This document shows, one piece after another, positions 7,246-48,100 of a stretch of DNA of 64,000 nt (the stretch's first letter is position 1; each line of letters starts with the position of its first letter). The DNA comes from a virus, in the IMG/VR virus record IMGVR_UViG_3300033571_009404, positions 124,001 through 188,000 of that record; one strand, 5' to 3'. Position numbers and translations under genes: made by a program. A model generated the notes under the pieces. That model saw only the letters and a list, made by a program, of their open reading frames with translations, was not told the DNA's origin and searched no databases.

Positions 7246-7256
7246 GAAGATCCTCG

Positions 7257-8432: not shown

Positions 8433-8443
8433 TGGCTACCTCG

Positions 8444-9619: not shown

Positions 9620-9641
9620 GTTTAAAATACTCCGGAGAAAA

Positions 9642-9671
9642 CCCAGTGACAGATGCTACATTGTCACTGGG
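9642..9671 (-). terminator. Minus-strand terminator between fibre genes
   Basis: A 10-bp perfect stem (9642-9651 with 9662-9671) is followed, reading on the minus strand, by a TTTT run. It lies after the stop of the 536-residue fibre gene. Confidence 0.75.
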
Positions 9672-9687
9672 TCTTTGGAAGGTTACA

Positions 9688-21772: not shown

Positions 21773-23281
21773 ATGGAACAAGGCATGGTCTGCTACTGCG
21801 ACGGTGGTTCTCGCAATGGCACCGCTAAAGGTGGAGCAGGTTGGGGAGGCTTTGGCATCCACGGTTATCTCTACAGGCTGGTAGAAGAAGTTAAGAAGGG
21901 TGCAGGGATGGCTGATTGGATCCCCTGCACTGATGGATACGTCACCAAGAAGGAATTTAAGGAAGGCACTAATAAGTTCACTGAAGTCGAAGTCGTCCAT
22001 TATATCGACGGCGTGGGCTCCTTCGGCATGGATGTTACTAACAACTATGCAGAACTTCAGGCCGCCATTAATGCTCTACGGCATGCACAGCAATACGTGC
22101 TCAAGTCTGTTCTGATCGTCTCTGATAGCCGTTACGTCATTGACGGGATGAATGAGTACGTGGACAACTGGGCGTCTTATGGTTGGAAGAAACGCAATGG
22201 CGGTGAAATCGCCAATCTTGATGTATGGCAAGAGTTAGCCGCGCTACGAGACAACCTTGTCAACAATGGGGTCAAGATTGAATGGCGATGGGTCAAGGGG
22301 CACGATGAGGAGCGAGGGAATATCGGCAACACTATTGCTGATCGATATGCTACCATCGGAGTCATGTGTTCTAAGGGTGGTGAAGTACGTATCGAGATCG
22401 ATACTACAGCTGCTCAAGGTTATTGGAAGAACGATGTGGATAAGCATCCGCTTATCTGTCACCGTCGTATGTACTTCAACACGGCTAAGGATGGAAACAA
22501 GCCGGGCGAGTACTACATTGGTGAGCATGGTGCTGACGATGAAATCTTGGGCACTCGTAAGAGTGATGGCTGTTATGGTATCGTACGCTTGAAAGTACCT
22601 GAACCAGTCGTGGAAACCGTGCTGGACCATGCTGTAAGGTCCGCTGGAAGCCTTGACAATATTATGGCAGTGAGGTTAGATAACCTTTTCCGTGTGGATA
22701 CATATCAAGATATCCGCCGTCATGGACAGTTTGCTTTCATTCAGTCCAACAAGTACAACTTGTCGACGACGTGTATTGACGAGCAACCTCTCACCACAGA
22801 GTTCACTCGTCCGATGTTGGCCATGCGGGCCGTTGAGGCTATCGACGCTCTCGCTGACATTCTCAAGTTGTACCAAAGCCGTGATCCAAGTATTACCACC
22901 ACTGACATAACCGATGTCTTCTACACTACGGAAACCAAGGTGAAGAAGAAAGAGGAAGTGAAAGAAACGCTTTTGAAACCTGAGTTCGGCGTAGGCTATA
23001 CCGACGTAAAGGTAGAAGCTAATTTCAATGACGGAGTTAACGGACTGCGTCAGGCACCAGTTATTCTGGTATTGGGATTGGATTTACCTCATCGCAACTC
23101 TCTGAAGCAATTGGAATCGTATTCTCCCAAGGTGACGTTAGTTACATGGAGCGACGAAGTCAATACGTTCAGGTTTGCGACAGTGATCGAAGCGGGTGAC
23201 GACTTGGGTATTTACGTTGGTCAGTATAGCAACTTGCGTTTGATTGCACCTCCAGCTACACTGACTGAGTCAGCAACTTAA
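21773..23281 (+). CDS. Ribonuclease H with a long C-terminal extension
   Basis: The 502-residue protein begins with a type I RNase H domain (residues 1 to about 195): YCDGGSRNG with Asp10, NNYAELQAA with Glu94, SDSRYVIDG with Asp118, and the loop His177 plus Asp190 in KGHDEERGN and TIADRYA. All expected catalytic residues are present, so it should cut RNA in RNA-DNA hybrids, for example primers or R-loops. A glycine-rich insertion sits between the first and second acids. The remaining 300 residues match nothing I know and include a charged linker (about 385-400) and a final beta domain. AGGAG lies six bases before the ATG. Confidence 0.85.
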   Translation: MEQGMVCYCDGGSRNGTAKGGAGWGGFGIHGYLYRLVEEVKKGAGMADWIPCTDGYVTKKEFKEGTNKFTEVEVVHYIDGVGSFGMDVTNNYAELQAAINALRHAQQYVLKSVLIVSDSRYVIDGMNEYVDNWASYGWKKRNGGEIANLDVWQELAALRDNLVNNGVKIEWRWVKGHDEERGNIGNTIADRYATIGVMCSKGGEVRIEIDTTAAQGYWKNDVDKHPLICHRRMYFNTAKDGNKPGEYYIGEHGADDEILGTRKSDGCYGIVRLKVPEPVVETVLDHAVRSAGSLDNIMAVRLDNLFRVDTYQDIRRHGQFAFIQSNKYNLSTTCIDEQPLTTEFTRPMLAMRAVEAIDALADILKLYQSRDPSITTTDITDVFYTTETKVKKKEEVKETLLKPEFGVGYTDVKVEANFNDGVNGLRQAPVILVLGLDLPHRNSLKQLESYSPKVTLVTWSDEVNTFRFATVIEAGDDLGIYVGQYSNLRLIAPPATLTESAT

Positions 23282-24780: not shown

Positions 24781-26250
24781 ATGTTAACACAACCTTTTGC
24801 TAAGGCTCCTCTCATCATGCCGATGATTAACATCGGCGCACTGCAAGATATTCCGACTGGTAAGTGGGAACGCGGTGCATATGGTGAATACATTCTGAAT
24901 GGTGGCTTAGCTATCATTGAAGGCGTGACTGGCCGTCCGAACATGTTCAAGTCCACCTTCCAACGTTATCGCTCTTTGAGGGCATCTGCTCGTATTCCGC
25001 AATCTGTCGGATCGATCTTCGACACTGAAGTGAACATGCACGAAGGGCACCAGGCGCACTTTGCTGCTGGTATTCCCGAGTTCGAAGGCGAACAAGTGTT
25101 TGACACTGGTCGTTGGGTGATCTCCAACAAAGCGCAATACAGTGGTAACGAGTACTACGCTCTCCAGAAAGAATTCCTGGAAGGTAAGGTCAAGAATGCC
25201 AAGGATCACTCTGTGGTGCTCCCGCTTCTGGATCGTGACAGTGCTCCCATGAAGGTCATCATTCCGTCGTTCTCGAATATGGACTCCATCACTCAGTTTG
25301 ACACTGATGAGATGATGCGTATCCAAAAAGACAACAACATTGATGATTCTTCCGGTAAGGTCATTTATGCCCTCGCTGGTCTGGCTAAGAAGCGTCTCTT
25401 GGACGAAGCACCTCGTCTGATGATTCGTTCGTCGAACTATCTGTCGATGACAGCACACCTGACCAAGAAGATTGAACTGGGTGGTGGTGGACCTGGTAAG
25501 TCGATGTTGCCGGATAAGCAGCTGAAGTTCCTGAAGGGTGATGACGTTATCAAGGGTGCTGGTCCTGGCTTCCTGACACTGACTCACAACCTGTGGTACA
25601 TCTACAACACATCCCCGCTGATCAATCAGGCCGACAAGACTGTGCTGTATCCGAAGAATCGTGATGACGACCTGAATCTGGATACTGACTTAAATGAAGT
25701 CACCATGATCAACCTGCGTGGTAAGTCTGGTGTGTCTGGTCTGCCGGTGCGCGTTATCATCTCGCAGAAGAACGGTGTGATGCCTGAACTGTCGGAGTTC
25801 CGCTACCTGAAGGAAACGGGCAACTACGGCTTTGAAGGTAACAACACAACCTACAACAGTGTCTTCCTGCCGGAAGTCAAGATCATGCGTACGACTATTC
25901 GTTCATTGATTGAAGAGAACCCACTGCTGTGCCGTGCACTGAACATTCAAGCTGAGATGTGTCAGATGGATGAACTGTGGGATGCTGGTATGGGTCCGGA
26001 TGTGCAACAGACACCGAAACAACTGTACGAGACTCTGAAGGCTAAGGGTTATAACTGGGAAGTCCTGCTGAAGACGCGTGGTTGGTATACTTACAACAAC
26101 GATCAACACAAGGTGCCTTTCCTGTCGACCATGGACTTGCTCTGCATGACCCTGCCGGAAGATCATCCTTCGTACTACTTCCCGTTCTGGATGGATCCTG
26201 CAACTAAGGACATCAAGGCCGAATACCGTGAAAAGTACATGACAGAATGA
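24781..26250 (+). CDS. UvsX/RecA-like recombinase
   Basis: The 489-residue protein has a P-loop GRPNMFKST at residues 51-59, which shares the unusual F-K-S core of T4 UvsX rather than the common GKS/GKT. It is preceded by a hydrophobic strand (GGLAIIEGV). A Walker B-like strand followed by polar residues (MKVIIPSFSNMDSITQF, about residues 156-172) fits the UvsX/RecA pattern. Such proteins coat single-stranded DNA and drive strand exchange with ATP. It is about 100 residues longer than T4 UvsX, with the extra length at the C-terminal side. From memory phiKZ-type phages carry a UvsX-like gene near a virion RNA polymerase fragment, as here. GAGG lies nine bases before the ATG. Confidence 0.72.
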   Translation: MLTQPFAKAPLIMPMINIGALQDIPTGKWERGAYGEYILNGGLAIIEGVTGRPNMFKSTFQRYRSLRASARIPQSVGSIFDTEVNMHEGHQAHFAAGIPEFEGEQVFDTGRWVISNKAQYSGNEYYALQKEFLEGKVKNAKDHSVVLPLLDRDSAPMKVIIPSFSNMDSITQFDTDEMMRIQKDNNIDDSSGKVIYALAGLAKKRLLDEAPRLMIRSSNYLSMTAHLTKKIELGGGGPGKSMLPDKQLKFLKGDDVIKGAGPGFLTLTHNLWYIYNTSPLINQADKTVLYPKNRDDDLNLDTDLNEVTMINLRGKSGVSGLPVRVIISQKNGVMPELSEFRYLKETGNYGFEGNNTTYNSVFLPEVKIMRTTIRSLIEENPLLCRALNIQAEMCQMDELWDAGMGPDVQQTPKQLYETLKAKGYNWEVLLKTRGWYTYNNDQHKVPFLSTMDLLCMTLPEDHPSYYFPFWMDPATKDIKAEYREKYMTE

Positions 26251-28124: not shown

Positions 28125-28469
28125 ATGAATCAAGAAACAACTACTGCCCCACAGGAAGAAGGGGTTCGTCCCTTGGCGGAGATCGTCACCAACATCCTGA
28201 AACAAGAAGGACATCCCAATCCCGAGGGTTGGATGCGATTCTTGGAAAATAATACTGGGAATCTGGATGTTATGCTCGAAGATGCAATGGTGCGCCGCGC
28301 CCTCTCCGCCATGTTAGTGGATGCGTCCGCTAATGGCGATGGTCTGAATACCATTGACGAACGTATGGCTGTTTTGACAACTGCTACCCGTCCTGAATGG
28401 ATCCGTATCTTCCAACTGAGGGTTGCACCATGCGTGGTCAAAAACCAGCTGCCGCTGACCAAGCACTGA
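28125..28469 (+). CDS. Small hypothetical protein
   Basis: The 114-residue protein starts six bases after the MazG-like gene and has only a weak ribosome site, so it may be translated by coupling. It is helical, with an acidic N-terminus and a tryptophan-containing middle (EGWMRFLENN). Its end overlaps the SLOG-like gene by 40 bases in another frame. No motif is recognised. Confidence 0.5.
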   Translation: MNQETTTAPQEEGVRPLAEIVTNILKQEGHPNPEGWMRFLENNTGNLDVMLEDAMVRRALSAMLVDASANGDGLNTIDERMAVLTTATRPEWIRIFQLRVAPCVVKNQLPLTKH

Positions 28470-29032
28470 TCGATGAAGACGGTGTAGTGATGGACCCTCG
28501 CTGGGTTACTGAATTGCAACGTCTTATCACTGGTGCAGGATTATCTCTGAGTGAACCAATACCGCATGAACTGATCATCGAATTCGATCAACGCATCATC
28601 GTCGCAGGAACCAGATACTTCGAGGACATCGGACTATTTGATTCTCTGATGGATGATGAAGCAGCTCTTTACAAGACTAAGGGCAGCTTCATGTTCATCT
28701 CCGGTGCAGCTAAAACCGGTGCAGATGCTCTGGTGATCGAGTGGTGCAAAAAGCGTGGTTACCCTTATGCCGTCTTCCCAGCTGACTGGGACGCCCATGG
28801 GAAATCCGCAGGATACGTGCGCAATGCTGAGATGGCCAAACATCTCACTAATCTGACCGTCTTCTGGGACGGGAAGTCTAACGGCACTAAACACATGATC
28901 GAATGTGCAGTGGAAAAGGGCGTACGTCCCCACAAGTACATCGTCGATATCCCACCACCGGAAGCCCGTGTACACTCTTATGGTGTCATGAATGCGAAGT
29001 CTGACCCACGTCCGGCTCACAGGGGCTTGTAA
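28430..29032 (+). CDS. SLOG-superfamily (DUF2493/YspA-like) nucleotide-binding protein
   Basis: The 200-residue protein has the DUF2493 order of motifs. IIVAGTRYFED (about residues 56-66) is the first strand and loop. FISGAAKTGADALVIEWC (89-106) is a phosphate-binding loop. FPADWDAHGKSAGYVRNAEM (116-135) is the family signature, and VFWDGKSNGTKHMI (144-157) is the second glycine loop. SLOG proteins bind nucleotides or nucleotide-derived ligands such as NAD or ADP-ribose products. The actual ligand is not visible. TGAGGG lies seven bases before the ATG at 28430, which overlaps the upstream gene. Confidence 0.75.
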   Translation: MRGQKPAAADQALIDEDGVVMDPRWVTELQRLITGAGLSLSEPIPHELIIEFDQRIIVAGTRYFEDIGLFDSLMDDEAALYKTKGSFMFISGAAKTGADALVIEWCKKRGYPYAVFPADWDAHGKSAGYVRNAEMAKHLTNLTVFWDGKSNGTKHMIECAVEKGVRPHKYIVDIPPPEARVHSYGVMNAKSDPRPAHRGL

Positions 29033-29046
29033 TCAAGGATTAGTCC

Positions 29047-29715
29047 ATGCCTGGTAATCGCGCTGCGGCAATGGCTGAACTGAAGAACGTCGTAGAGAAG
29101 ATCCTGCCTGGGGGTGGGATCTTTGATATGTACCGTAATCGGTTAGAGCCAATGTCTGATGAAGAATTTGAACAATTCATTCATCGTCTTGAAACAGGTG
29201 AAGAACGACTTGCAGTTATCGCTCCTAACTTCAGTAAGGTGCGTCTGGAAGTAGAACGCAATCTGGCGATCGCTAAGGAGTGGGGACACAACTTCTTTGA
29301 ATCGATTCGCATCGAGACTGATGATGATACACCACCTTATTACTCTAACGACAAGTATTTGGTGGTTCTCTTGCCGATCCGTCGGCAGGCACAGCTGTTG
29401 TCTAAAAAGATTTCGGTAGCGGAGGATAGCAACTCCATCGATATCTTCTCAGGCCAAGCTGTAGGTAGTAGTCGTGGTAGTAGCATCTCCTACCCAGAGT
29501 CGCAGATCCTTCGTGCATTAGGCTTGCCTGATAACCAAGAGGAACTGTTAAAGCTGCGTGGTGGTGACGTCGCAGGTAATGCTGCGTTGAATGCATCCAT
29601 CTCTCGTACTGGTGGTGCATCCATGTCCGAAATCCGCAAGCTAGGTACAGAGGTCACATCAACACGTACATTGAGTGTATTGCTCACTTCGATGCACATC
29701 GGCAACACTCTGTAA
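29047..29715 (+). CDS. C-terminal fragment of the RNA polymerase beta subunit
   Basis: The 222-residue protein follows the last ~150 residues of bacterial RpoB. MSDEEF (residues 36-41) matches the FSDEEV segment. SIRIETDDD (86-94) matches the QIRLYDGRT strand. YLVVLLPIRRQAQLLSKK (104-121) matches MYMLKLNHLVDDKMHA. SGQAVGSSRGSSISYPESQILRALG (135-159) keeps the Q..G....G......E...L.A.G spacing. SVLLTSMHIG (210-219) matches NVLLKEIRSLG. This region forms the clamp-side anchor in RpoB. The large beta chain at 45111-49568 ends where this part should begin, so the two should make one beta subunit. It probably corresponds to phiKZ gp149 (from memory). AAGGATTAG precedes the ATG. Confidence 0.8.
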   Translation: MPGNRAAAMAELKNVVEKILPGGGIFDMYRNRLEPMSDEEFEQFIHRLETGEERLAVIAPNFSKVRLEVERNLAIAKEWGHNFFESIRIETDDDTPPYYSNDKYLVVLLPIRRQAQLLSKKISVAEDSNSIDIFSGQAVGSSRGSSISYPESQILRALGLPDNQEELLKLRGGDVAGNAALNASISRTGGASMSEIRKLGTEVTSTRTLSVLLTSMHIGNTL

Positions 29716-29731
29716 GAAAGGCACACGCGCT

Positions 29732-30265
29732 ATGGCTCAAGGCGAATTAGAGATAGAAGTGGATATGGGGTCATTGAACAGCATTTTTATCCAGGCTTAC
29801 GAGCGTGAGATAAACATCTGGTCCGATGCAGCTGCTGCAGATATCGATCACTTCGTGAGAACGATGGTGATTGAATCGAGGCATGTGGCATTGATTACCA
29901 CAAATGGGATTGAGGAGATCAGGAATGCTCTCTTCAAAGAGGAAGTGGTGAGTGACTTCATTCAATCATTGTCCTACCGATTCTTTGCTTACTGGGGTAA
30001 GAATAAAGTCGGTATCGGGCAATTATGTGAAGTACTGTCCGTCGCACTAACACAACCAACTGAAGAATCAGAGGCTGATGATAAGGATAATGAAGTACTG
30101 TTACCTCCTGAGTATAGCGACCGCTATCGCACTGAAGGTGACTTACTGAAGATCCTGAATCACAACCGTTGGTTTATTGTTATCTGCCTCATCAGGTTAT
30201 TTGTGGAACACAAACGTGCACCGCGGGTTCAACAATCTGAAGAGGGAGAGGGATCAGCTGGTTAA
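29732..30265 (+). CDS. Hypothetical acidic protein
   Basis: The 177-residue protein starts at ATG 29732 with AAAGG ten bases upstream; an in-frame ATG at 29675 lies inside the polymerase fragment gene and is less likely. It is rich in Glu and Asp, mostly helical, with a hydrophobic helix near the end (about 150-163, WFIVICLIRLFVE) that could be buried or membrane-associated. Function unknown; conserved position next to a polymerase fragment makes a virion or transcription role possible but unproven. Confidence 0.5.
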   Translation: MAQGELEIEVDMGSLNSIFIQAYEREINIWSDAAAADIDHFVRTMVIESRHVALITTNGIEEIRNALFKEEVVSDFIQSLSYRFFAYWGKNKVGIGQLCEVLSVALTQPTEESEADDKDNEVLLPPEYSDRYRTEGDLLKILNHNRWFIVICLIRLFVEHKRAPRVQQSEEGEGSAG

Positions 30266-30326: not shown

Positions 30327-31148
30327 ATGTCGATCTCCAGTTCTGGAGGAATCTACACTGAGTTAGACGTACTGCTGGATACGCATCTGGCTACGTTATC
30401 ACTCATAAGCCAGGACCTCTGCAATGAGGTCCTGCATTCCGGGGTTCATCACACGCGTAAGGAAGACGCTTATCCAGGCGTTGCCCATGCTGCGATGAAA
30501 CAGAAGTACGAGCAACGGAATGAAGTCACATTGACTCAGTCGATGATGACTAATATCTTTATCGTGATTCGCCACCTGTTTAAAACGATTCTCGATGAAG
30601 AAGTAATGACGCCGTTCCACGGCAAACTGAAACTCTTCGTTAACGTTCATCCGTATTCGAACTTGTCCGACGAAGAACGCGACGCTTTGACTGTCGCGAT
30701 CGCCCACAACATCGGTGGTGTGGCCGAGGTCGAGTTAATCGACATGGCAGTATCGGAACTTACTCCGACTCACTGCAAAGCGACTTATCGCTTCATGGTG
30801 ATGTATGACTGGGGTACCTGGATGAATGTCCAGACGCCAGCTTTCCACCAGACTGCCATTCCGGAGGTCGCTGTTATTGCACCGGCAATATACCATGCGG
30901 GCTCCCCTACTGAAGATGAGATACAAGAAAGCTTCGTGGAGCTTAAAAAGCACTTTCCCGATGCTACTTCTTTATTTGACGCTTCTGAGAAGCTAAGTCA
31001 AATGCTCATCAATTTACATCTGATAGACGTCGCATTCTTTAGCGTCATATCAGAGTTTAGTCAAACCGTACATACCAGCACTCTCCCAGATATCGCGACC
31101 CTATTAGGGAATGCGATATCTGGTGAGGCTGCAATACCAACACGGTGA
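30327..31148 (+). CDS. Hypothetical protein
   Basis: The 273-residue protein has AAGAGGG before its ATG. The N-terminal half (1-100) is helical and histidine-containing, the middle (100-190) appears alpha/beta (LKLFVNVHPYS, ATYRFMVMYDWG), and the end is helical. No known motif, membrane segment or signal peptide is found. It ends at a bidirectional terminator facing the gene at 31225-31716. Confidence 0.5.
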   Translation: MSISSSGGIYTELDVLLDTHLATLSLISQDLCNEVLHSGVHHTRKEDAYPGVAHAAMKQKYEQRNEVTLTQSMMTNIFIVIRHLFKTILDEEVMTPFHGKLKLFVNVHPYSNLSDEERDALTVAIAHNIGGVAEVELIDMAVSELTPTHCKATYRFMVMYDWGTWMNVQTPAFHQTAIPEVAVIAPAIYHAGSPTEDEIQESFVELKKHFPDATSLFDASEKLSQMLINLHLIDVAFFSVISEFSQTVHTSTLPDIATLLGNAISGEAAIPTR

Positions 31149-34771: not shown

Positions 34772-36943
34772 TTAACGACGTTCTGTACCGTGCACCATGG
34801 CAGCTGCAATTTGACCAGGGATAGTATCACCCAAGAAGGAAGCGATGTGTGCTGTCGATTTCCATGTCTTGAATTCTTCCATCTGTTTAGTCAATGCGAG
34901 CTTCATGCGTGGGAAGGCGTAGACTAAGTCGTAGAGCTTCATGCCAGCCAATACGTTCATGTAGTCGGTAAACGAGTTATCGTCATCGAACGTACCAGTT
35001 GCTAAGCCTGCGCCTAACACAGCACCTGCACCTGCACCAGCTAACGCTCCAACACCAGCCGCAGCAGGAGCTACAGCACCGCCTCCTAAGAGGGTAGCGC
35101 CCACACCACCAGCTAATGCACCAGCTTCAGAGCCACCAGCCGCGCCCAATACACCACCACCGATACCACGAGCAAGCTTACCCCAAGAGAAGCCTTGAGA
35201 TAACGGCATGTGAATAATCGAAGACAGATCCAACACCGAGAAGTCCACACGAATACCTAAGGACTTACCGTTGTTGTTAAAGCCTAAGTTACCCACACCA
35301 CGAGTGATGGTCATGGAGTCGATAATGCCCAGACGAGTAAGCACACGACCTTGGTCGTACAACTCGCACAGGAACGGCGACACGTAGGACTGCTTACCAG
35401 CAGACAGAGGCAACACACCCGCTAACAGACATGCTAAGGGGAAATGCATCTGGATCAGACGCGATATGGGATTACCATACGTCGGAATCAGATCAATCGA
35501 GTAGTTACCACGTGGTAGGTTAGCCGTAGACTGTTGCCAGTATTTAGGGATGTCCACGAATGCAGCACCACCTAGGGTCGCTAAGCCAGAGATCTGAAGA
35601 GAATCTCCCACACCACGGAAGAAGTCACCCACACCACCCAACGCTGCCTTAACAGTGTCACCAATCCAACCACCGCCTACGTTACCGTTAGCAAAGGAGA
35701 ATTTCATGTTACGTGCTTGAGACGACATGTTATTCATCTTTTGCATCAGTTCAGATTCACCTGCAGAGTTACTGAAGGATTCACTAACCTGACCAGTTGC
35801 ATTGACACGGAAGCCTACGAAAGATGCACCATCGTTAATTTCAGCTAACAGGTATTCACGCAGACCTGGGTCGTCCTTGATATTCCCATCAGCATCGTAC
35901 TCGATAGACTCAGCCGTCGTGGAGTTCGATTGACTGTTATCCGTATCAGACACATTACCTACAGAGGCAGCATTGGAATTTAACCAGCGCTGTAAGTAGA
36001 TCGGCATGTCGGTTTCATCAGCCCCTTTACCAGAGCCACCGTTGCCTAATGTGTTAGTGACCCCAGGATCGCTCACAGTGGTCGTGTAGAGCCTTTGAAT
36101 CTTATCGGCGAAGGATTCGTTGCTAACTTCGTTTAACGCCTCATGGATCGCCATAGAGCGTTTACGGGCCATACGCTGCGCACGGTTGGCAACAGCGTAT
36201 GCATTGATACCACCTGACTCACGGAAGATGTCCGGCATTTGACGGTGAATCTTCTTCAACATATCAGGCGTGAAGGTGTAGCCTTCGTTAGCTGCTTTTT
36301 GATCTTCACCGCCTAAACGAGGCACGATACCTTCGTTAACGGCAATCTGGTTAATGATCGTGTTGACAGCTGTCCAGTACAACGGCATGGCAGGCTTGGA
36401 GTAATAGAACTTACTCGCTGGTTTATTCATGAAGTAACGAGCAGCAGAACCAATTAAGGTCACAGCTAATAACTTCCACGATAAGATACCAACGACAAAG
36501 CCTGTTGCCTTACCCAGTGTATACATCACACCGGTAGAACGACCAGTACGTGCTAAGAGACCTGCATCAGCTGAATAGAAGCCTGTGAAGAAGGTCGTTA
36601 AGCTATTGAACTGAGCTTGACCAAAACGCAGATAGATCAACTGTGCGTTATCGTCAAAAGCTTCGCTGTAGTACGGACCCATACCTTTGCCACTACGACC
36701 GGTCGCATCCTGGAGGCTTTTGGCGTTTACACCAGGGGACCTTGGGTCAGTGAATCGACAGAACTGAGGTAATGGGTTAATTGCAAAGTTACCACCTAAG
36801 GTGGTATCTGTAAATTTGATGTCCGCTGAGGACTTGTAAAGCTTATCCCGAATATCAGGATGGATATCATCGGAACCAATGACGAATGCGTTCTTTACCC
36901 AATACGCATCCCGTACCGCTGGTCCGGAAAGAATACCTGCCAT
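34772..36943 (-). CDS. Large tail-associated virion protein
   Basis: The 723-residue protein starts at ATG with GGAGAATTC upstream. It has hydrophobic stretches near residues 150-175 and a long Gly/Ala-rich segment (about 600-665, LGAAGGSEAGALAGG and similar) that resembles membrane-seeking parts of injected or tape-measure-linked proteins. A beta-rich domain (about 480-590) contains IDLIPTYGNPISRL. It lies directly downstream of the tape measure in the same direction, separated by a terminator-like palindrome. From gene order it is likely a tail or baseplate component; the family is not recognised with certainty. Confidence 0.55.
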   Translation of the reverse strand: MAGILSGPAVRDAYWVKNAFVIGSDDIHPDIRDKLYKSSADIKFTDTTLGGNFAINPLPQFCRFTDPRSPGVNAKSLQDATGRSGKGMGPYYSEAFDDNAQLIYLRFGQAQFNSLTTFFTGFYSADAGLLARTGRSTGVMYTLGKATGFVVGILSWKLLAVTLIGSAARYFMNKPASKFYYSKPAMPLYWTAVNTIINQIAVNEGIVPRLGGEDQKAANEGYTFTPDMLKKIHRQMPDIFRESGGINAYAVANRAQRMARKRSMAIHEALNEVSNESFADKIQRLYTTTVSDPGVTNTLGNGGSGKGADETDMPIYLQRWLNSNAASVGNVSDTDNSQSNSTTAESIEYDADGNIKDDPGLREYLLAEINDGASFVGFRVNATGQVSESFSNSAGESELMQKMNNMSSQARNMKFSFANGNVGGGWIGDTVKAALGGVGDFFRGVGDSLQISGLATLGGAAFVDIPKYWQQSTANLPRGNYSIDLIPTYGNPISRLIQMHFPLACLLAGVLPLSAGKQSYVSPFLCELYDQGRVLTRLGIIDSMTITRGVGNLGFNNNGKSLGIRVDFSVLDLSSIIHMPLSQGFSWGKLARGIGGGVLGAAGGSEAGALAGGVGATLLGGGAVAPAAAGVGALAGAGAGAVLGAGLATGTFDDDNSFTDYMNVLAGMKLYDLVYAFPRMKLALTKQMEEFKTWKSTAHIASFLGDTIPGQIAAAMVHGTERR

Positions 36944-36999: not shown

Positions 37000-39900
37000 T
37001 CACCTCGACTTCGCCAGAGAGATCGGCGCGCGAGGCGCTCCTACACCTGGACCTGTCGCACTACGACGGCTATCTTCACGAGACGACGAATCGCTAGTTG
37101 CAGAACTACCACCTGCTAAACCACCGCCCTTGGAGACGGCTTCAGCAATAGTCTTCAAATAGTCACGCATGTCAGTGTTGATCTGAATCAACTGAGACAT
37201 GGCTTGTTGTGAACCCGCTGCAGTCAGTGCTGGGTCAGTCGTTTCCTTCTGACGTTGTGCCTGTGCTGCTTGGACCTTCGGCGTATTCATGTCGAAACCA
37301 GAACCCATCACTTGTGCGGCTGCGTCTGGACCTGCACCATCAGACGAGGCACTTGCTTGGGCCGTTGGTTTAGCCATTGCACGACCACTACCATCAGCCG
37401 AGACGTCCGGAGACGACGATCCCGTTGTGGAGGACTGTGCTTGCGGTGTTTGACCATCAGCCTTAGCTGTAGCATCAGCAGTTGCTGCGCTACCACCAGC
37501 TGTACTGTTAGTCAGTTGCTCAGAACCATCCTTAAAGCCAGCACCAAACTGACCACCCTTAGTCTTCACCAGGTTGTTCAGCTTCTGATAGACTTGACCA
37601 ATGGTCAATGCCTTACCGTTGCTGTAGAAGATACCGACGTTAGCACGAGCTTCAGCCGGGAAGACATCAGCTGCAATTGCCTTCGGATCTGCCTTCAAGA
37701 ACTTACGAGCACCACCGGCACCCATGAAGTGAGCCAAGTACAAGTCAGTATCAGTCAGAGGACGATCAACTGCACCCTTCAGCGCAGCCATGTTCTCCTT
37801 CAGGAACTCAGCACCCATCAGTGCGTTAGCACGTGGATCCAACTGCGTCGTTCCTGGTGCGATACCGTACTTACTACCGTACTTATCCAGCATCATCTTC
37901 CAGGTACTGTTAATGAACTGATAAAGTCCGGATGCTGACGAAGTCGGTGCCTTGACTTGCCAGTTAAATCCAGACTCAATAGCAGCCATGGTGGTCATCA
38001 ACTTAGGATCGACACCTGCCATCTTTGCTACTGCTTCAATCAGATCCTTAACAGCGGCGTATGACTTATTGCCAGTAGGTTTAGGTAAGGAATTAACATC
38101 ACCGCCCGTACCCTTCCCAGGGTGAGCGATTTCATTACCTCCACCCATGTCAGAAGAATAACCAGTGGCATCATCTTTCATGCCAGAACCCTTGCTACCA
38201 CCAAAGAGGTTCTTGAACCATCCGGTTACTCCACCACCGCCAGTCTTACCACCTTCCTTATCATCATCTCCACCACCAAAGAGCTTAGCCCAGAAGCCTT
38301 TATCCTTCTTGACTCCTGCCTCACCCAGTGCCTTAGCATCAGCAGCTTTATCAGCTGCATCTTTCTTCAGACCCGAGGAAGACTTCGACTCTTCATTGGC
38401 CACTAACTTCTTAGCCAGTTCACGTAACCCTGCTACGTTGTCGTCAGTACTCTTGACGTCTTCGTTTAAGGTGTAACCTGCCCATGGAGAAGTGGGTACC
38501 ATCCACACCGATACCGAAGAACCGGAGTAGTTAGTCTTAGTGGTGATGATTGCCATAGCGATGTCAAGACGATCTTGATCGCGTACAGCAGTATTGGCTT
38601 CTACTGGGTTAGCACGGTTAGTCTTCTTCTTCAGAATGGTTGCCCAGTTCAGGAAGACCGGCAGGAACCGCAGACGGAACCATGCCGAGAAGTTATAACC
38701 GCCAGGTGTACCCAGCGTTACACCAAAGGAAGGACCGATGGCTTTAATGACATCATCAACACTACCTTCCCAGGTAGCTTGACCGGTAGTGCCATATTTC
38801 AACTGTGGACCTAAGTAGACTTCAAGGCTATCTAATGCGCGTACCTTGATGGTATCCATTTCTGTCAGACCGTAGGTCTTATAGCGGATAGCCGTAATCG
38901 CATCAATCGTACCTTGAGAGCCGCTCGTGTAAGCACCTACATCAACGCCAGCAGTTGCTGAGTAAGTTACCCCAGAACCAACTGTACCCGCTAATGCAGC
39001 ACCACCAGAGCCATCTGCATCCATGTCCTTAGACAGAGCACCAGCATTAGGATCAGCAGCAGGAAGATCAGTTGCCTTACCTTCAGAATTAGCTAAACCA
39101 GAACCTTGGGAATCAGGAGAACCTGCAGCTACACCAGCAGCAGCTGCAACAGCATTGGCATCAACCTTATTCTTTTCAGTAGCCGATTTATTTTCTTCAT
39201 CCAGCTTCTTGTCCGTGGCTTCAACTAACTTAGCCACGCCTTCGGCATCAACGGGGAGTTCCTTTAAGTCTTTGAATGGCGAAATCTTCACGCCATAGGG
39301 ACCATCTGGGAATGCAGCCTTAGACAAATACTTCTTCTTGTCTTCGTACTTCAGTTTCTCCACGTCACCCAGATCTGTCTTGGGATCAACTTCATGCAGA
39401 CTTTGCAGATGTTTCATGAAGACAGGTTTGAATCGACGCATGAACCAGTCAATCCAAATTGCCATCTCCTTGTCCTTACCAGGATCCACATCAAAGCCAT
39501 CAACTAATTCCTTAGCCTTCAGATCCTTAGGGATATTCAGCTTAGGAGTATCGCCATCAAACTCAACATACTTCTGGAGTTTGTCTTCTAACTTGAAGAG
39601 TGCATCAGCGTGGTCTTTGTCATCAGGCAGAATACCGTATTGAGCAGCACGGACTTTCGACAGAGTCGTCAGTCGTTTCTTGGTAGCAAACTGATACAGC
39701 TTGTAAGCACCATAGCCAACACCAGCAACTGCAGCTGCACCTAAGGCAATGGGAGAAGATAAGAGCGTCAGTAAGCCAGCGCCTAATGTACCAGCACCAG
39801 TCAAGAGTGTACCTGCTCCAGCCAGTGCAGAACCACCACCGACTAAAGAAGCTAATGAGAAGGCACCCATACCAGCAGTTAAGCCATCCATCAGCTTGTT

Positions 39901-42900
39901 TTGCGACTGACCAGTAGCCAAGTCGTAAACACTCTTAGCACCGTAGGCAACAGAACCAATACCCAGTGCTTTACCTAAGAAGCCACTACCCATCCCGAGC
40001 AAGCCTTTACCAGCACCCAGAATACCCTTACCAATACCACCAAGTCCAGGTAACTTAGAAGCGATGTAAGCACCGATACCAGATTTAGCAGCGTCACCTA
40101 AGCCGCTGTCCTTATCTTCCTCGTCACCTCCACCAGCTGCACCTCCGCCCTTCTTGCCGAAGAGTTTACCAAAGATGCCACCTAAGGCACCGAAACCACT
40201 CATCTTACCAAAACCAAGCTGTTGCTGTTTACGGTCTTCAGCTTCTTGCTTACTCTTGGCTTTCTCTTTGTCCTTACGATCTAAGTCAGCAGCGCTATTG
40301 TCGCGGATGCCATCACCATCAGCATCGCCGAAGACATTACCCTTACTCTTAGGAAGACGTGCATCCAAGATATCACGGATTTCAGTCAGACGTGTCACCA
40401 TGGTTTTACCACCCACCATGATCACGCCATTAGGTCCAATGATCGAACCCAACATTCCCTTAGCAAAGTTCAAAGCACCATTGAGTACGGAGTCAGCTGC
40501 ACCAATACCACGGAACAGAGAACGTACACCAAGACCTGCAACAGAACCTAACTTAGATGCAAACAAAGCCGCACCAAACTTCATCTTCTTACCGTAGACG
40601 TCTAAGAGACCATCCCGCACATCTTCTTCGGTTAAGACGACGTTATCGTTTTCATCGAGAACGGGTCCATCGATTTCAGAAGGACGAGCCAGAACCTTAC
40701 CAGTACGAGCAGACTTATATTGACCTGCTTTAAACTTTTCAGCGTACAGCGTTGGGTTCTTAAAGCCCATGCGGTTGGTGTAGACGTCCTTAGGTACACG
40801 CAACATGTTGACGGCACCCATAACACCAGCCTTACCTACACCGTACACTGTTGGCACGGCTTTAGTAATAGCATCACGAGCAGTGTTTAAGACGTCATCA
40901 GCAGCACCTAGTCCTCGAATAGCGCCCTTACCGGCTTTGAGACCCAGTTTACCGATACCACCGATAATACCAGAGTTCCAAATCTTACCAGCGCCCCAAA
41001 GACCGGCAGTACCAATACCTGACAATACCTTATTGACTGCCTTACCCGTGCGGTTAGCTGCACCCAAGTAAGCACGGAAACCATTAGCAGCAGTACGAGC
41101 AGCGCCACGACCTGCAGCAAAAGGTGCTTTCCATAACGGCATCTTCCACCAAGGAGTTTTCATGGATTGCGTTGCGCCTTCTTTATTGATAGGAGCATCT
41201 CCACCTAAACCACCTTGCATGTACATACCGTTAGCCAGACGGTCTTCAATACGCATCAACGCATCACGTGTGGCTTCTAAGACGTCACGGCTGTTGTTCT
41301 CACGAATAGCTTGAAGGACTTCCTCACTATTCAAACCACTGCCGCTACTTTCGCCATTGGTGATATTATTGATTGTCCGATTGAAGGTACGGGTGTTAGT
41401 TGTGTTGTAGTTTGTGTCTGGACCACGAACACCACCCATACTGGCTGCAACACCCTTTTGTTCAGCTAACTGATACAGCGCTTGTTCACTGATGGGACGA
41501 TCAGCAAAGTAATCGTACACTGCAGTCATGTCAATACGACCTTGCTTAACAATGCCAAGGTTTTCTAACAGACCCAGTTGACCGGAATCGATCATCTGTT
41601 GGATACGTTCTTTGTTGACGTCGGCCGAACGACCGAGGTTACGATAGCTGGTATTGAACTCAGCTCGTTTAGCACCATCTTTATCGTTCTTGTAGTAGTC
41701 TTTAAACAGACCTGCGAACTGAACACCATGCTTGGCTGCGTCTCCTTGATAGAAGAGGCGGTTAGTCAGGGTCTCAGCATCGCCTACTTTACCTTCAGCG
41801 TTACCACGTACCAGTTCACGTCCTAAAAGCTTACGCTGTTCAGGAGAGAGTTTCTTTTGCGGATCGATCTTGTCTAATGCCCGTTCGATTTCAGTTGACA
41901 CGTTACCCTTAGACACTGGGTCAAACAACTTACTCAGTGTATTACGGCTAACAGCGCCTTCATGGTCGAAACGGTTACGATCGTAATCGTAAGTAATCAG
42001 TTGCGCTGATTGGTCACCAGTACGGATGATACGCAGCTCACGCTCAATACGCGACAGATAGCCGGGTAAGATCTCATTGATGGTCTTTAAGGTGCGACGG
42101 TTTAAATAAGCACTCTCGTCTAAATTACCACGCTTATCCACACCAACGGTTGTGTCTACGTTATTGATACCACGCAGCATGTCCTTGCCAAAATCAATGG
42201 CACGACCCTTTAACCCAAATTGATCTGTACGACTACGTGCCCAACGTTCTAACAGTTGAGGAACGTTCTGTGCATAGAAGCCAGCAGCATTACCACCACG
42301 ACGTAATGTTTGGTTCTGTTCCAGATAACGACGAGCGTTAGGTGCAAAGCGACCCAACAATGCATCAATCACCGAACCAGCGCCAAGCTGTCCCGCAGCA
42401 CGACCGGCTTGAGTAACACCATCGATGCCCATCCCATCAGCCATACCAGCCAGAGACGAAGCCTCACGTCCAATACCCACTGCTCCCTTTACCCGAGACA
42501 GCAGGTTCTTGGAAATGGTATTGGTTAAGTTCTCAAAGAACTGATCACGCTTCTTAAAGATGTTACCAGCTAAAGAGTTAACGATCTTGTTACGCAGCAG
42601 TTGCTCTGCGTATTCACCCGTCTTCAATTTAGCATAGTCAGGTAAGCCGGTGTTCTTGACCACGGCTTCTAAACTACGCAGCACTTTCACGTTGGTGGTC
42701 TTAGCCTCTTCCAACATGTCAACCGTAGCGTAGTACTGACGGTATTGTAATTCCAATGACTTACGCATGTAAGCTGCACCCACCTTCGTATTGAAGGCAG
42801 TGTTCTGGATCGTTGCAATGCGCATCTGATCCAAGATTTGTGCAGTTGTGGAGAAACGCTTCTGATCGATAGCGTCACGCATGCGTTCACGTACTTCGTC

Positions 42901-43422
42901 TTCAACACGGTGGCGATTATTCTGTTCAGTGTTGAATTGGAAAATCTCAGCTTGTAGACGTTCCAGTTCCGAATTACGGAAGTCATCTTTGCTAAAGAAA
43001 GATAACGGTGACGAATCCGTTTTGCTGAACTCTTTTAAGATGTCAGCAGCTTTCTTAGGCAGGTATTTCTCTGCAGCCGGGATGATTTTCTGTACAGCGC
43101 GACGCGAATCATTCAGAAGGGGTTTCGTGATGTTCGCAGCATCATTGTATAGATTCTTTCCAGAGCTTATGAGTTGGTCGCCGAATTCCATGGCTTCGCC
43201 ATAGCCAGCAGGCAGCACCTTTTTAATGGTTTGCCTGATGACTGCGCCGGATGTAAGTTGAGACTTAGCACCCTTAACGAAACCTTGAGTAAACTTCGTC
43301 ACCGGTTTGCGATCATCTTTCTGATTGCCGCCCGATGGACCGAAGTCGAAATCCGGCAGATCAAGCTCCATATCGGACCCACCAGAAAATGGGTCCATAC
43401 TAAACTTCTTCTGCTTGGCCAT
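37000..43422 (-). CDS. Tape-measure-like virion protein with lytic transglycosylase domain
   Basis: The 2140-residue protein is close to the size of phiKZ gp181 (from memory). It is mostly helical with long hydrophobic and Gly/Ala-rich segments in the centre (about 1180-1265), as in tape measures. A DADGDGIRDNSAAD loop near residue 1030 looks like a calcium site. Residues about 1785-1950 form an SLT domain: AAIESGFNW has the catalytic Glu (near 1813), followed by SSASGLYQFINSTW. This domain would cut peptidoglycan during injection. The last 190 residues are Gly/Ser/Gln-rich and end basic. AGAGAGG precedes the ATG. It is divergent from the polymerase genes. Confidence 0.85.
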   Translation of the reverse strand: MAKQKKFSMDPFSGGSDMELDLPDFDFGPSGGNQKDDRKPVTKFTQGFVKGAKSQLTSGAVIRQTIKKVLPAGYGEAMEFGDQLISSGKNLYNDAANITKPLLNDSRRAVQKIIPAAEKYLPKKAADILKEFSKTDSSPLSFFSKDDFRNSELERLQAEIFQFNTEQNNRHRVEDEVRERMRDAIDQKRFSTTAQILDQMRIATIQNTAFNTKVGAAYMRKSLELQYRQYYATVDMLEEAKTTNVKVLRSLEAVVKNTGLPDYAKLKTGEYAEQLLRNKIVNSLAGNIFKKRDQFFENLTNTISKNLLSRVKGAVGIGREASSLAGMADGMGIDGVTQAGRAAGQLGAGSVIDALLGRFAPNARRYLEQNQTLRRGGNAAGFYAQNVPQLLERWARSRTDQFGLKGRAIDFGKDMLRGINNVDTTVGVDKRGNLDESAYLNRRTLKTINEILPGYLSRIERELRIIRTGDQSAQLITYDYDRNRFDHEGAVSRNTLSKLFDPVSKGNVSTEIERALDKIDPQKKLSPEQRKLLGRELVRGNAEGKVGDAETLTNRLFYQGDAAKHGVQFAGLFKDYYKNDKDGAKRAEFNTSYRNLGRSADVNKERIQQMIDSGQLGLLENLGIVKQGRIDMTAVYDYFADRPISEQALYQLAEQKGVAASMGGVRGPDTNYNTTNTRTFNRTINNITNGESSGSGLNSEEVLQAIRENNSRDVLEATRDALMRIEDRLANGMYMQGGLGGDAPINKEGATQSMKTPWWKMPLWKAPFAAGRGAARTAANGFRAYLGAANRTGKAVNKVLSGIGTAGLWGAGKIWNSGIIGGIGKLGLKAGKGAIRGLGAADDVLNTARDAITKAVPTVYGVGKAGVMGAVNMLRVPKDVYTNRMGFKNPTLYAEKFKAGQYKSARTGKVLARPSEIDGPVLDENDNVVLTEEDVRDGLLDVYGKKMKFGAALFASKLGSVAGLGVRSLFRGIGAADSVLNGALNFAKGMLGSIIGPNGVIMVGGKTMVTRLTEIRDILDARLPKSKGNVFGDADGDGIRDNSAADLDRKDKEKAKSKQEAEDRKQQQLGFGKMSGFGALGGIFGKLFGKKGGGAAGGGDEEDKDSGLGDAAKSGIGAYIASKLPGLGGIGKGILGAGKGLLGMGSGFLGKALGIGSVAYGAKSVYDLATGQSQNKLMDGLTAGMGAFSLASLVGGGSALAGAGTLLTGAGTLGAGLLTLLSSPIALGAAAVAGVGYGAYKLYQFATKKRLTTLSKVRAAQYGILPDDKDHADALFKLEDKLQKYVEFDGDTPKLNIPKDLKAKELVDGFDVDPGKDKEMAIWIDWFMRRFKPVFMKHLQSLHEVDPKTDLGDVEKLKYEDKKKYLSKAAFPDGPYGVKISPFKDLKELPVDAEGVAKLVEATDKKLDEENKSATEKNKVDANAVAAAAGVAAGSPDSQGSGLANSEGKATDLPAADPNAGALSKDMDADGSGGAALAGTVGSGVTYSATAGVDVGAYTSGSQGTIDAITAIRYKTYGLTEMDTIKVRALDSLEVYLGPQLKYGTTGQATWEGSVDDVIKAIGPSFGVTLGTPGGYNFSAWFRLRFLPVFLNWATILKKKTNRANPVEANTAVRDQDRLDIAMAIITTKTNYSGSSVSVWMVPTSPWAGYTLNEDVKSTDDNVAGLRELAKKLVANEESKSSSGLKKDAADKAADAKALGEAGVKKDKGFWAKLFGGGDDDKEGGKTGGGGVTGWFKNLFGGSKGSGMKDDATGYSSDMGGGNEIAHPGKGTGGDVNSLPKPTGNKSYAAVKDLIEAVAKMAGVDPKLMTTMAAIESGFNWQVKAPTSSASGLYQFINSTWKMMLDKYGSKYGIAPGTTQLDPRANALMGAEFLKENMAALKGAVDRPLTDTDLYLAHFMGAGGARKFLKADPKAIAADVFPAEARANVGIFYSNGKALTIGQVYQKLNNLVKTKGGQFGAGFKDGSEQLTNSTAGGSAATADATAKADGQTPQAQSSTTGSSSPDVSADGSGRAMAKPTAQASASSDGAGPDAAAQVMGSGFDMNTPKVQAAQAQRQKETTDPALTAAGSQQAMSQLIQINTDMRDYLKTIAEAVSKGGGLAGGSSATSDSSSREDSRRSATGPGVGAPRAPISLAKSR

Positions 43423-43497: not shown

Positions 43498-45114
43498 ATG
43501 AAAAACCTATCAGTACCATTCAACGTCTTCTTCTTAGAGTTGAAGCCCGCTACGCTCATGCGTATGCGTCCGACGACTTCGTTGGAGATCTTTGATAATG
43601 CCAACAACCTGCATCCTGACGGACTGTTCTCTACCCTTACTTTTGGCAAAGTGGGTGATCCGCTTCGCATGCAGAAGTTTTCCTATATCGACATCAAGGT
43701 CGATATTCTTCATCCGGTGATGTATCGTGCCATTGGTAAGTTGAAACGCTTCCATACCGACATCTTAGCCGGTCGTGAATATGCCGTCTGGAATGAAGAA
43801 CTGAAAGACTTCGATCGTAGTAACATCATCGAAGGTCAAACCGGTTACGAGTTCTTCATGCGACATATGAAGAGTATTGTGTACCCTCCTAATAAGAGTG
43901 TGCAGCGTCAGCAGAACATTGAACTGTTCAACAAGTTCAAGGACAAGGCATTAGTCAACAAGATTGTGGTTATGCCTGCTGGTTTCCGAGATGTAGAAAT
44001 TGACAATGGTCGTGTGACCTTAGATGAGATCAATGGTTTCTACAAGACCATTCTGTCTATTGCCAACACCATTAGCCCGACTGCATTGCAAACTAACATC
44101 GAGATGTTAAACCGCTCGCGTTTCCGTTTGCAAACTGCATTCAATGAACTCTTTGCTCACTTAGAGCGAATGATTCAAGGTAAGCGTGGTTTCCTCTTGG
44201 GTAGCTGGGCTTCTCGTAGTCCCATGAACGGTACTCGTAACGTGATTACGGCTCTGGTCACACGGACTAACGAACTGGGTGCTCCTGGTTCCATTACCAT
44301 GAACGACACGGTCTTGGGCATTTACCAAGCCATGAAGGCATACATGCCTGTAGCGCGCTTCTTAGTGCGTAACAAGTATCTGCCTTTAATCTTTAGCTCG
44401 GTGGAACGGCCAGCACGTCTGGTGGATCCTAAGACACTGAAGATGGTAGACGTTCAACTGAAGCCGCAAGTCTTTGACCGTTGGAATACGGACGAAGGTG
44501 TAGAGAAGATCATCTCAGCCTTCGGTGAAGAATCGGTACGTCACAAGCCATTGATGATTGATGGACACTACATGGGTCTGGTCTATCGTGGACCGGATGC
44601 TACGTTTAAGTTCTTGCAAGACATCGATGACTTACCGCCTCATCTGGACAAGAAGAACGTCACACCCATGACCTTCGTGGAATTGATGTACATGTCCATT
44701 GGTAACAAGTTAAACGAATACCCGATGTTCGTGACGCGTTACCCGGTGACTGGTGTGGGTTCCATTTATCCTTCGTTTGCTTATGTCAAGACCACGATTG
44801 CTCAAGACCAGCGTCGTGAACTCAATGACCTGTGGCAGCCGTGGGGTGAAACCTTCTACAGCTTCCCTGTACCTGGTGGTGAGTTCGTGAACTCACTGAT
44901 TCCGCACCCGATGCACATTAGCCCTCTGGGCGCTGACTTTGACGGTGACATGTGTTCTGCTAACGGCACCTACACCGACGAGTCTAAAGTTGAAATCAAG
45001 AATTTCCTCTCCAAGAAGAAAGCGTACGTTGGTACTGACGGTCGTTTCATCTATCCGGCTGGTACTGACACGATTTCTTTGCTTTTGCACAACTTAACAG
45101 GTGAACCGGCATGA
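43498..45114 (+). CDS. RNA polymerase beta' subunit, N-terminal part (virion type)
   Basis: The 538-residue protein carries the metal-binding core of multisubunit RNA polymerase: DFDGD at residues 480-484, preceded by HPMHISPLGA. The usual N of NADFDGD is replaced by G, while all three aspartates remain. Upstream, LLGSWASRSPMNGTRNVI (about residue 230) matches the LLGKRVDYSGRSVI segment of RpoC. YPMFVTRYPVTGVGSIYPSF (about 410-430) matches the VLLNRAPTLHRLGIQAF segment. The chain stops soon after the active site, so the C-terminal half of beta' must be encoded elsewhere. The equivalent in phiKZ is gp180 of the virion polymerase. It overlaps the beta gene by ATGA. Confidence 0.88.
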   Translation: MKNLSVPFNVFFLELKPATLMRMRPTTSLEIFDNANNLHPDGLFSTLTFGKVGDPLRMQKFSYIDIKVDILHPVMYRAIGKLKRFHTDILAGREYAVWNEELKDFDRSNIIEGQTGYEFFMRHMKSIVYPPNKSVQRQQNIELFNKFKDKALVNKIVVMPAGFRDVEIDNGRVTLDEINGFYKTILSIANTISPTALQTNIEMLNRSRFRLQTAFNELFAHLERMIQGKRGFLLGSWASRSPMNGTRNVITALVTRTNELGAPGSITMNDTVLGIYQAMKAYMPVARFLVRNKYLPLIFSSVERPARLVDPKTLKMVDVQLKPQVFDRWNTDEGVEKIISAFGEESVRHKPLMIDGHYMGLVYRGPDATFKFLQDIDDLPPHLDKKNVTPMTFVELMYMSIGNKLNEYPMFVTRYPVTGVGSIYPSFAYVKTTIAQDQRRELNDLWQPWGETFYSFPVPGGEFVNSLIPHPMHISPLGADFDGDMCSANGTYTDESKVEIKNFLSKKKAYVGTDGRFIYPAGTDTISLLLHNLTGEPA

Positions 45115-48100
45115 TTCTTTACGATCAGTTCTTCCGGAACTATGCTATTCGTCTGCCTTCGGATCTGATTCGACCCAAGCTGCGCAAGATCAACTTCTTT
45201 GATCTGCCGCGTAACTCCATCGTGCACTACTACGATGACACGTCGATCGCTAATGGTCCGATGCATGATGAAATCTACCTGAAGAAAATCACCAAGCCTA
45301 TTTACTTAGGCAACGTGACGACTTTAGCGTTCCAAAAAGGTAATCCTCGTCTGCGGGTACCCAACCCTGCTGACATGATTTCCAAGTACTTCTCCAAGCA
45401 TCGTCGTTTCATCAAACTGCGGGACTTGCGTTTAGCTGGGCGTGATCAGACCACTGCGATCATGTACAACTACAACATGCTCCAGCACATCTACCAGTAC
45501 ATCCGCTCGAACTACAGTCATTACTTCGAGTGGTATAACACTTGGGCTACGATGGTGGCCAATGCTGAACAGGTGGCCAATGAAAGTGAACGCCATCAGT
45601 TCTTCGTTCTGAAGCTGCCGACTCTTTTGCCCTCGATCTCCGACATGCAGTTCGGTGAGCAACAGGCCAATGCAAACGTAGGTCAGTCTCTGGTACGTAA
45701 GTTCGATACGTCTGAACGTCGTATCCTGTTGGAGTTCTGGAAGATGCTTGGAGAACATCCCGAGACTTCGATCTTCAACATGATCAGTGAGCGTAACCGT
45801 AACCGCATTAACTTCGTTTTTGTGGAGTCGGGTCGTTGGACGTTCATTAACTTCGGTGTTCTGATGAGTTGGAAGAAAGCAACCAAGCAACAGTTGCTGG
45901 ATGCTAAGGACAACCCAGAACTCATGTCGACACTGTTAAAGAAGAAAGGCTTTGCACCTTTGACGATGCAAAAGACTTTCCTGCGCAACATGATGTCCAT
46001 CATGCAAGCGCGTTCGATCAACAGTGAAGAGGATGAAGTTGAAATCGATCTGGTTGAAGATGCACCTGAAGTCAATGGTGCTCCGATAGCTAAGCCTACT
46101 CCTAAGGCTGACACGACTAAACAGTTGGATAAGATCCCAACTAAGGCGGGACCCACTGGTGATGAAGGCGTCACCATAAAAAACCCGAGCCTGAAGAACC
46201 CAAGCGATACAACCCATTCTTCCAGTCCATCCTCCTCGGGAAGCGACGTAAAGGATGAAAGTTCTTCAGATGTACCGGTTGTGTCCGACCAGAGCTTAGA
46301 TGAACTGGACAAAGAATTCTCAGTAGCTGAAGATATCCAACGTCACATCGACGAGGATCTTAAGCAGCTGGAATTGATGAATAAGAACAGCTTAATTGCA
46401 GAGGACAGCACTACCCCTGAAAATGAGTTTGCTCTTATCGCTGGTGATGTGGAAGCACCTACCTTAGCTGAATCGTTCATGAAGCGTCTGGACGCATTGG
46501 CCGATACTGGTGCTATTACTGGTCAAGACTATGCTCGACTGAAGAAGCACTCAGAAGAGTATAAGACCATGCCGATCCCAGAAGTCATCTCTTCGTCCGT
46601 GGCAGGTACCATGGAAGAGTTCGTCGATATCAAGCCAGAAGATCTGTCGATTGAGGAACCGCCTAAGCTTCCTGACATTCCTACTGTGGTTGATAAGACC
46701 ATGCTGGAATCGACGCTGCTGGAGTTTGACTCTCAGTACATCGAGAAGGTCATGCAGCGTGACATCGCTGCGATGGTGTTGAACTTCCAGAAAGCTGGCA
46801 TCGCTGTTAAGTCTTACGAAGTTGAAAAGATTGAGAACATCGCTGGTGCTTCTTATGTCTACACGGTCAAGACTGTACCTATTGAGGGTATGCCTAGTAC
46901 TTGGGTATTCCGCTTACCCGTCCTGAATAAGGAAGGTGAGTACAAGTCCAATGACGTGAAGTACAACATGCGTAAGCAGCGCAGTGAAGTTCCCATTCTG
47001 AAGGTGAGTCAAGAGCGTGTGGCATTGACGTCTTATTACGGCAAGATCTTTGTGGATCGTTCGGATAAGAAGGTCAATGACTTTGGTACTTGGGTTCGTA
47101 ACCAAGTGCGCGCCAAGGGATTGAACCCGGCTGACCCGACGATTGTGAACATTCACCCAGCTGATGTGTTCGATCCGAAGTTCAAAGCACCGCGTGCATA
47201 CACCATCATGGCTAACGGCTTTACTGACTTGGGTGTGACGCCCTCGTTCGTACCCGATGGCTTTGAAGCAGATTCCTACATGCTCTGCTTTGACCATACT
47301 AAGCGCAAAGCTCTGTATGGTGAAGAAGTGGTCGCTGCATTGGAACAAGGTGGTCAGGTAGTCTTTGGTCGCGCAATGCGTGGTGGTTTCTTAACGGTTG
47401 ACCATCATGGCACGATCTATCTGACACGTGCTGATATGAATCCGCAACCGCTGATGACTTTTGATCAGCTGTTATCTCTGGACATGAGTAAGCAACCTCC
47501 GGTGGACTTTGTGGAGTTGCGTTATCTGGGTAAGTCTGTTCCGTTGGCTTTTGTCTTAGCCTACGAAATGGGTCTGACGCAGTTAATGCAATATCTGCGA
47601 GTGACTCCGCGTCGTGTGCCTGTGGGTACACGTGTATCGCTGGCTCAGAATGAATTCGGTATTGTGTTTAACGACACGACGCTGATCTTCAACCGTGATA
47701 ACAGTGTAGCATCGCTGATCATGGCAGGGTGGAATGAATATCACCGCAGTATTCGTGAGTATGACTATCATGAATTTGACCGCCGTGGTGTTTACTTCAA
47801 CATCTTCGATAAACACGGCATGACCGTGAAGTACTTGCGTGAAATCGATCTGATGTACCAGCTCTACATCGACCCGATCACAAAAGACTTGCTGCAAGAG
47901 ATGAATGAGCCTACAGAGTTCCGTCCTCTGTTAGTTCGTTGCGCTCAACTGTTAACGACAGATGAATATCCAGATACCATTAACCGTGAGAAGGGTTATG
48001 AACGGATGGCCGGTGCAGTTTACGCTGAACTGGTTAATGCTGTTCGTGCTCACTCGGGTCGACCCAATAAGTCTAAACAACCTATTGAACTGAACCCGCA

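Follow-up and report, generated by a model that had tools for sequence, protein, structure and literature searches.

The window analysed here is a stretch of 64,000 nucleotides, positions 124001–188000 of a virus record of 310,114 bases (G000, IMG/VR). It carries two forward-strand genes that we take to encode the two parts of one RNA polymerase β subunit, a small protein of 222 amino acids (β-C) and a large chain of 1485 amino acids (β-N). These genes and their neighbours were assigned as follows:

21773–23281, RNase H, preceding the β-C gene
24781–26250 (+), UvsX-like recombinase, homologue of phiKZ gp152, upstream of β-C (PHROG 97, E 3.4e-24; 34% identity, E 8e-92)
29047–29715 (+), β-C of the virion polymerase (vRNAP), orthologue of phiKZ gp149 and SPN3US gp218 (PHROG 3233, tblastn, predicted fold)
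30327–31148 (+), homologue of phiKZ gp147, downstream of β-C (24% identity, E 3e-19)
34772–36943 (−), homologue of phiKZ gp182, between the two β genes (34% identity, E 6e-129)
37000–43422 (−), homologue of phiKZ gp181 with a transglycosylase domain (PHROG 3201 and 4067; E 5e-77 to gp181)
43498–45114 (+), vRNAP β′ fragment of 538 amino acids, orthologue of phiKZ gp180 (PHROG 2986, E 7.5e-190; 36% identity, E 1e-103 to gp180)
45111–49568 (+), vRNAP β-N, 1485 amino acids, orthologue of phiKZ gp178 (PHROG 3148, identity to gp178, hhalign, structure match)
51327–52052 (+), vRNAP β′ C-terminal fragment, orthologue of phiKZ gp176, SPN3US gp244 family (44% identity, E 2e-69 to gp176)

The β′ C-terminal role of the gp176/gp244 family follows a published assignment (PMC5105663). 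The gp181 homologue lies between the two β genes and is the 'tape measure' of the sequence-only reading, here a putative label; the phiKZ record notes gp181 as a tail-associated endolysin.

The small protein is encoded by an intact open reading frame with an ATG start. The PHROG 3233 profile, named 'RNA polymerase beta subunit', covers it from end to end (residues 1–222, E 4.5e-73). Among 50,697 phage records, tblastn with an E limit of 1 found 278 with a relative; identity is below 60% in every case, and in 266 of them the match spans at least 80% of the query. An alignment of nine sequences of the β-C family reveals invariant positions in three stretches, R.Q.Q.L..K, GQ..G.S.G and GGD. Pfam, searched at E up to 1, holds no family for either the small protein or the large chain.

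In IMG/VR viral contigs, the small protein used as a single-sequence query matches only two loci, one of which is an identical copy, and a profile search with its family gave 226 matches, 80 of which were kept. Of the 82 loci from both searches, 75 were read and yielded 69 distinct proteins; left out were L001 and L014 (identical copies), L049, L051, L052, L055 and L078. Our alignment A4 consists of 57 of these 69 proteins and the window protein (58 sequences in all); fragments, near-duplicates and proteins with a long extension at the N-terminus were omitted, and several sequences were cut back so as to begin where the match begins.

The sequence-only reading had recognized in the small protein the missing end of bacterial RpoB, on the basis of a series of short motifs. 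All the words it quoted (MSDEEF, SIRIETDDD, LLPIRRQAQLLSKK and SVLLTSMHIG) are found in the translation, and the spaced motif that it gave exists as well, although its spacing was off by one; the real form is Q..G...G......E...L.A.G, with three residues rather than four between the two glycines. As a basis for the assignment, this likeness does not suffice. When hhalign was run between the gp149 profile and bacterial RpoB (six sequences), the best local match fell at the expected place (TQQPLGG...GEMEVWALEAYGA) with a score of 21.0, but among 200 column-shuffled profiles 31 scored no lower, and 13 of the 200 also touch the same region of RpoB. Since the match fails the shuffle control, we do not count it as evidence. 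Neither phmmer with the small protein nor hmmsearch with the profile of its family finds an RNA polymerase among the PDB sequences, the best matches of the small protein being beclin and designed proteins with E-values of 0.036 or worse. The link between the small protein and RpoB thus rests on homology to phage proteins and on structure, not on direct sequence likeness.

We therefore turn to the predicted structure. The AlphaFold2 model of the small protein, built from the 58 sequences, is of moderate quality (pLDDT 77.9, pTM 0.44), with residues 112–123 below a pLDDT of 50. A Foldseek search of the PDB with this model gave 67 matches, none of them at E ≤0.001; the top 31, and 46 of the best 50, are second-largest-subunit chains of RNA polymerases. 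VIA-align compared the model with 217 of the chains, 180 of which reached a Z-score of 2 or more, and each of the best 50 of these 180 comes from an RNA polymerase entry (Z up to 8.9), so that the model shows no confident match to another fold. Residues 1–222 of the model correspond to approximately residues 1134–1339 of E. coli β. The last ~95 residues superimpose on E. coli β at ~3 Å and the whole alignment has an rmsd of ~18 Å, which is due to the two halves of the model being placed differently. In BFVD, the model has eight matches at E ≤0.001, one of them named as a virion-associated RNA polymerase subunit.

The large chain is intact. PHROG 3148 (RNA polymerase β) spans it from end to end (E 0), it shares 36% identity with phiKZ gp178, and relatives are found in 294 phage records at E up to 0.001. 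Its GVGDKG...NQMK stretch contains two lysines, K1418 and K1426, which are eight residues apart, the same spacing as that of K386 and K394 in the phiKZ non-virion polymerase (nvRNAP; PMC8287921). The C-terminus lies 59 residues past the second of these active-site lysines. The chain therefore does stop soon after the lysine pair, as the sequence-only reading had it, and the part of RpoB that follows approximately residue 1134 (E. coli numbering) is absent. Aligned by hhalign with bacterial RpoB, the profile of the large chain gives an E-value of 3e-11; in the shuffle control, its score of 99.2 was reached by one of 200 column shuffles (an outlier at 141.3). A phmmer search of the PDB sequences with the large chain finds no RNA polymerase.

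For a model of the large chain, 54 of 66 loci were read, 10 with a C-terminal frame shorter than 400 residues were dropped, and 36 of the remaining 44 were combined with the window sequence (alignment A5). The AlphaFold2 model of the last 565 residues, built from these 37 sequences, has a pLDDT of 73.2 and a pTM of 0.64. In the PDB, Foldseek gives this model 432 matches at E ≤0.001, led by the AR9 nvRNAP (2.8e-18). In VIA-align (Z 19–20), the last residue of the model falls at residue 1134 of E. coli β (8txo_I: Z 19.7, 370 residues, 4.1 Å). Since the large model ends at ~1134 and the small model aligns with ~1134–1339, the two fragments, each modelled independently, tile β at approximately E. 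coli residue 1134. Being defined by the first and last aligned residues, the position of the joint is accurate only to within a few residues.

Among the gp178 homologues in IMG/VR contigs (L107–L172), we observed three recurrent interruption sites (large-chain numbering). The first, at ~1113–1122, is found in 14 of 66 loci and corresponds to the intron site of PhiPA3 (PMC11620839). The second, at 626/627, is clear in four loci (L123, L125, L160 and L165) and possible in L164, and the third, at 1414–1418, coincides with the catalytic GDK lysine in three loci (L160, L166 and L169). L166 and L169 seem to be one and the same sequence, and likewise L149 and L150. In an Rfam scan of seven loci, L160 has a group I intron at each of the three sites, L125 has one at 626/627, and L133, L144 and L168 each have one at the 1113 site; L165 gave no match, and the match in L166 lies elsewhere than the interruption site. 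In the window, where the β-N copy is intact, the scan gave no match at gathering scores.

The arrangement of a β subunit in two polypeptides is known from relatives. In SPN3US, gp241 has been described as the N-terminal and gp218, with 222 amino acids, as the smaller C-terminal fragment of β (PMC5105663), and in phiKZ, gp149 is listed among the vRNAP polypeptides (PMC8287921, PMC7618050). The claim of the sequence-only reading that a separate C-terminal fragment complements the large chain is borne out by homology and by the predicted structures, and is published for gp149 and gp218. The small protein is of the same length class as phiKZ gp149 and 45% identical to it over residues 15–196 (tblastn), whereas the ends of the two sequences are divergent. 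Both proteins have homologues of gp152 and gp147 as neighbours, in phiKZ, as in the window, the two β genes share a strand, and gp178, the partner of gp149, ends within eight residues of the aligned end of the large chain. The gene order differs: along the direction of transcription, gp149 comes ~27 kb after gp178, whereas the β-C gene of the window lies ~15 kb upstream of the β-N gene, the distance given in the sequence-only reading.

SPN3US gp218 (SPN3US_0218) has the same length as the small protein and matches it with 32% identity along almost the entire chain, a distant sequence; SPN3US has been studied genetically, whereas for the window phage the IMG/VR record is all that is available here. 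The best match among phage records is gp52 of Burkholderia phage FLC9 (54.5% identity over 222 residues), a 'hypothetical protein' in its record. In FLC9, β-N is gp40, and gp41, gp42 and gp43 lie between, as judged from order and size. Bacillus phage Goe21 gives a weak match (L174, 2086–3636; E 0.08) to the C-terminal part of a longer protein, Goe21_00920. In Bacillus jumbo phages, the C-terminal β fragment follows an HD domain in a fusion protein (PMC7598289), whereas the small protein is unfused. The AR9 record has gp077 (L101, 477–3572) as an HD-family phosphohydrolase, with only the RNA polymerase part in virions.

From homology to gp149 in sequence and neighbourhood and from the matching fold, we regard it as nearly certain that the small protein is β-C of the vRNAP of a phiKZ-like jumbo phage. 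A virion structural protein with no relation to RNA polymerase, resembling RpoB by chance, is a very improbable alternative. Relatives of the small protein do bear the label 'virion structural' or 'hypothetical protein' in some phage records, and the match to bacterial RpoB by sequence is not significant; but such a protein would account neither for the PHROG 3233 match and the RNA polymerase β chains among the best 50 of 180 in VIA-align nor for the fit of the two fragments at ~1134. Published experiments on the relatives also argue against it. SPN3US gp218 is detected in particles and is lost from particles of an amber mutant in which gp241 (β-N) is not made (PMC5105663), and gp149 has been reported to co-purify with other subunits, having been found alongside mCherry-gp180 when a pull-down was made from cells infected with phiKZ (PMC10612078).

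The nvRNAPs of AR9 (gp088) and phiKZ (gp71–73) likewise have a separate C-terminal β fragment, and the vRNAP, which has an N-β and a C-β, is reported to be split at a different position from the nvRNAP (PMC7598289). In phiKZ, gp71–73 itself carries the catalytic lysines (PMC8287921), whereas in the window these are on the large chain. Split β subunits in both phage polymerases (PMC7598289) would allow the small protein to be the C-terminal fragment of the nvRNAP instead, but the genome has a separate nvRNAP β-C (a phiKZ gp73 homologue, G000:235114–236082) and the small protein has as its orthologue gp149, which the phiKZ record labels 'structural head protein', and we give this reading hardly any credence.

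The surroundings of the β-C gene agree with phiKZ in part. RNase H and UvsX precede β-C here, matching the order in phiKZ, where gp155 and gp152 come before gp149, and a UvsX-like gene upstream of β-C is also found in LucasX and Viktualia. The gene directly after β-C, at the position of gp148 (29675–30265), has no similarity to phiKZ gp148 (E 1.5). Directly upstream of β-C lies a gene for a YspA/SLOG-family protein (28397–29032, +; PF10686, E 3.5e-11), a place taken in the phiKZ record by gp150 and gp151, both of them short and unnamed. Elsewhere in the window, four adjoining open reading frames at 5986–11298 (−) all match PHROG 2163, a virion structural protein, and form a tandem array of paralogous tail or virion genes.

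The remaining vRNAP subunit genes are all present in the genome: gp180 and gp176 in the window, together with the gp175 protease, and a gp80 homologue at G000:244727–245989. Homologues of the nvRNAP proteins gp71–73 (the gp73 part), gp55, gp74 and gp68 are also present, so that all four of the five phiKZ subunits that were searched for are accounted for (gp123 being the fifth). The gp73 homologue (G000:C1:235114–236082) is contained in a single 763-codon open frame; in the phiKZ record, gp71, gp72 and gp73 are annotated separately. There is also a homologue of the chimallin gp54 (26% identity, E 3.9e-26). Taken together, the vRNAP set, the four nvRNAP subunits and the chimallin homologue point to a phiKZ-like, probably nucleus-forming phage that has the full set of vRNAP genes and most, if not all, of the nvRNAP.

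By analogy with the relatives, we infer that the small protein contacts the large chain in this phage. β-C would be made separately, bind the β-N chain and the β′ pieces in the infected cell, and be packaged in the head with the other vRNAP pieces, to be ejected with the DNA. It would supply the part of β that follows the catalytic lysines, and early promoters could then be transcribed without the host polymerase. One might further suppose that the cut at ~1134 persists because it brings an advantage: a small fragment that joins late would leave the polymerase incomplete, or able to unfold, during packaging and ejection through the tail, and active only after re-assembly in the cell; we consider this unlikely.

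The split has already been published for relatives, and what we describe is its correct recognition in a new genome and a new sequence. Since both the split and the role of gp149 and gp218 are in print, the general understanding of these polymerases does not change. For this 310-kb phiKZ-like phage record, the annotation of the virion polymerase is completed, and the cut in β is placed on the E. coli scale, at approximately residue 1134.
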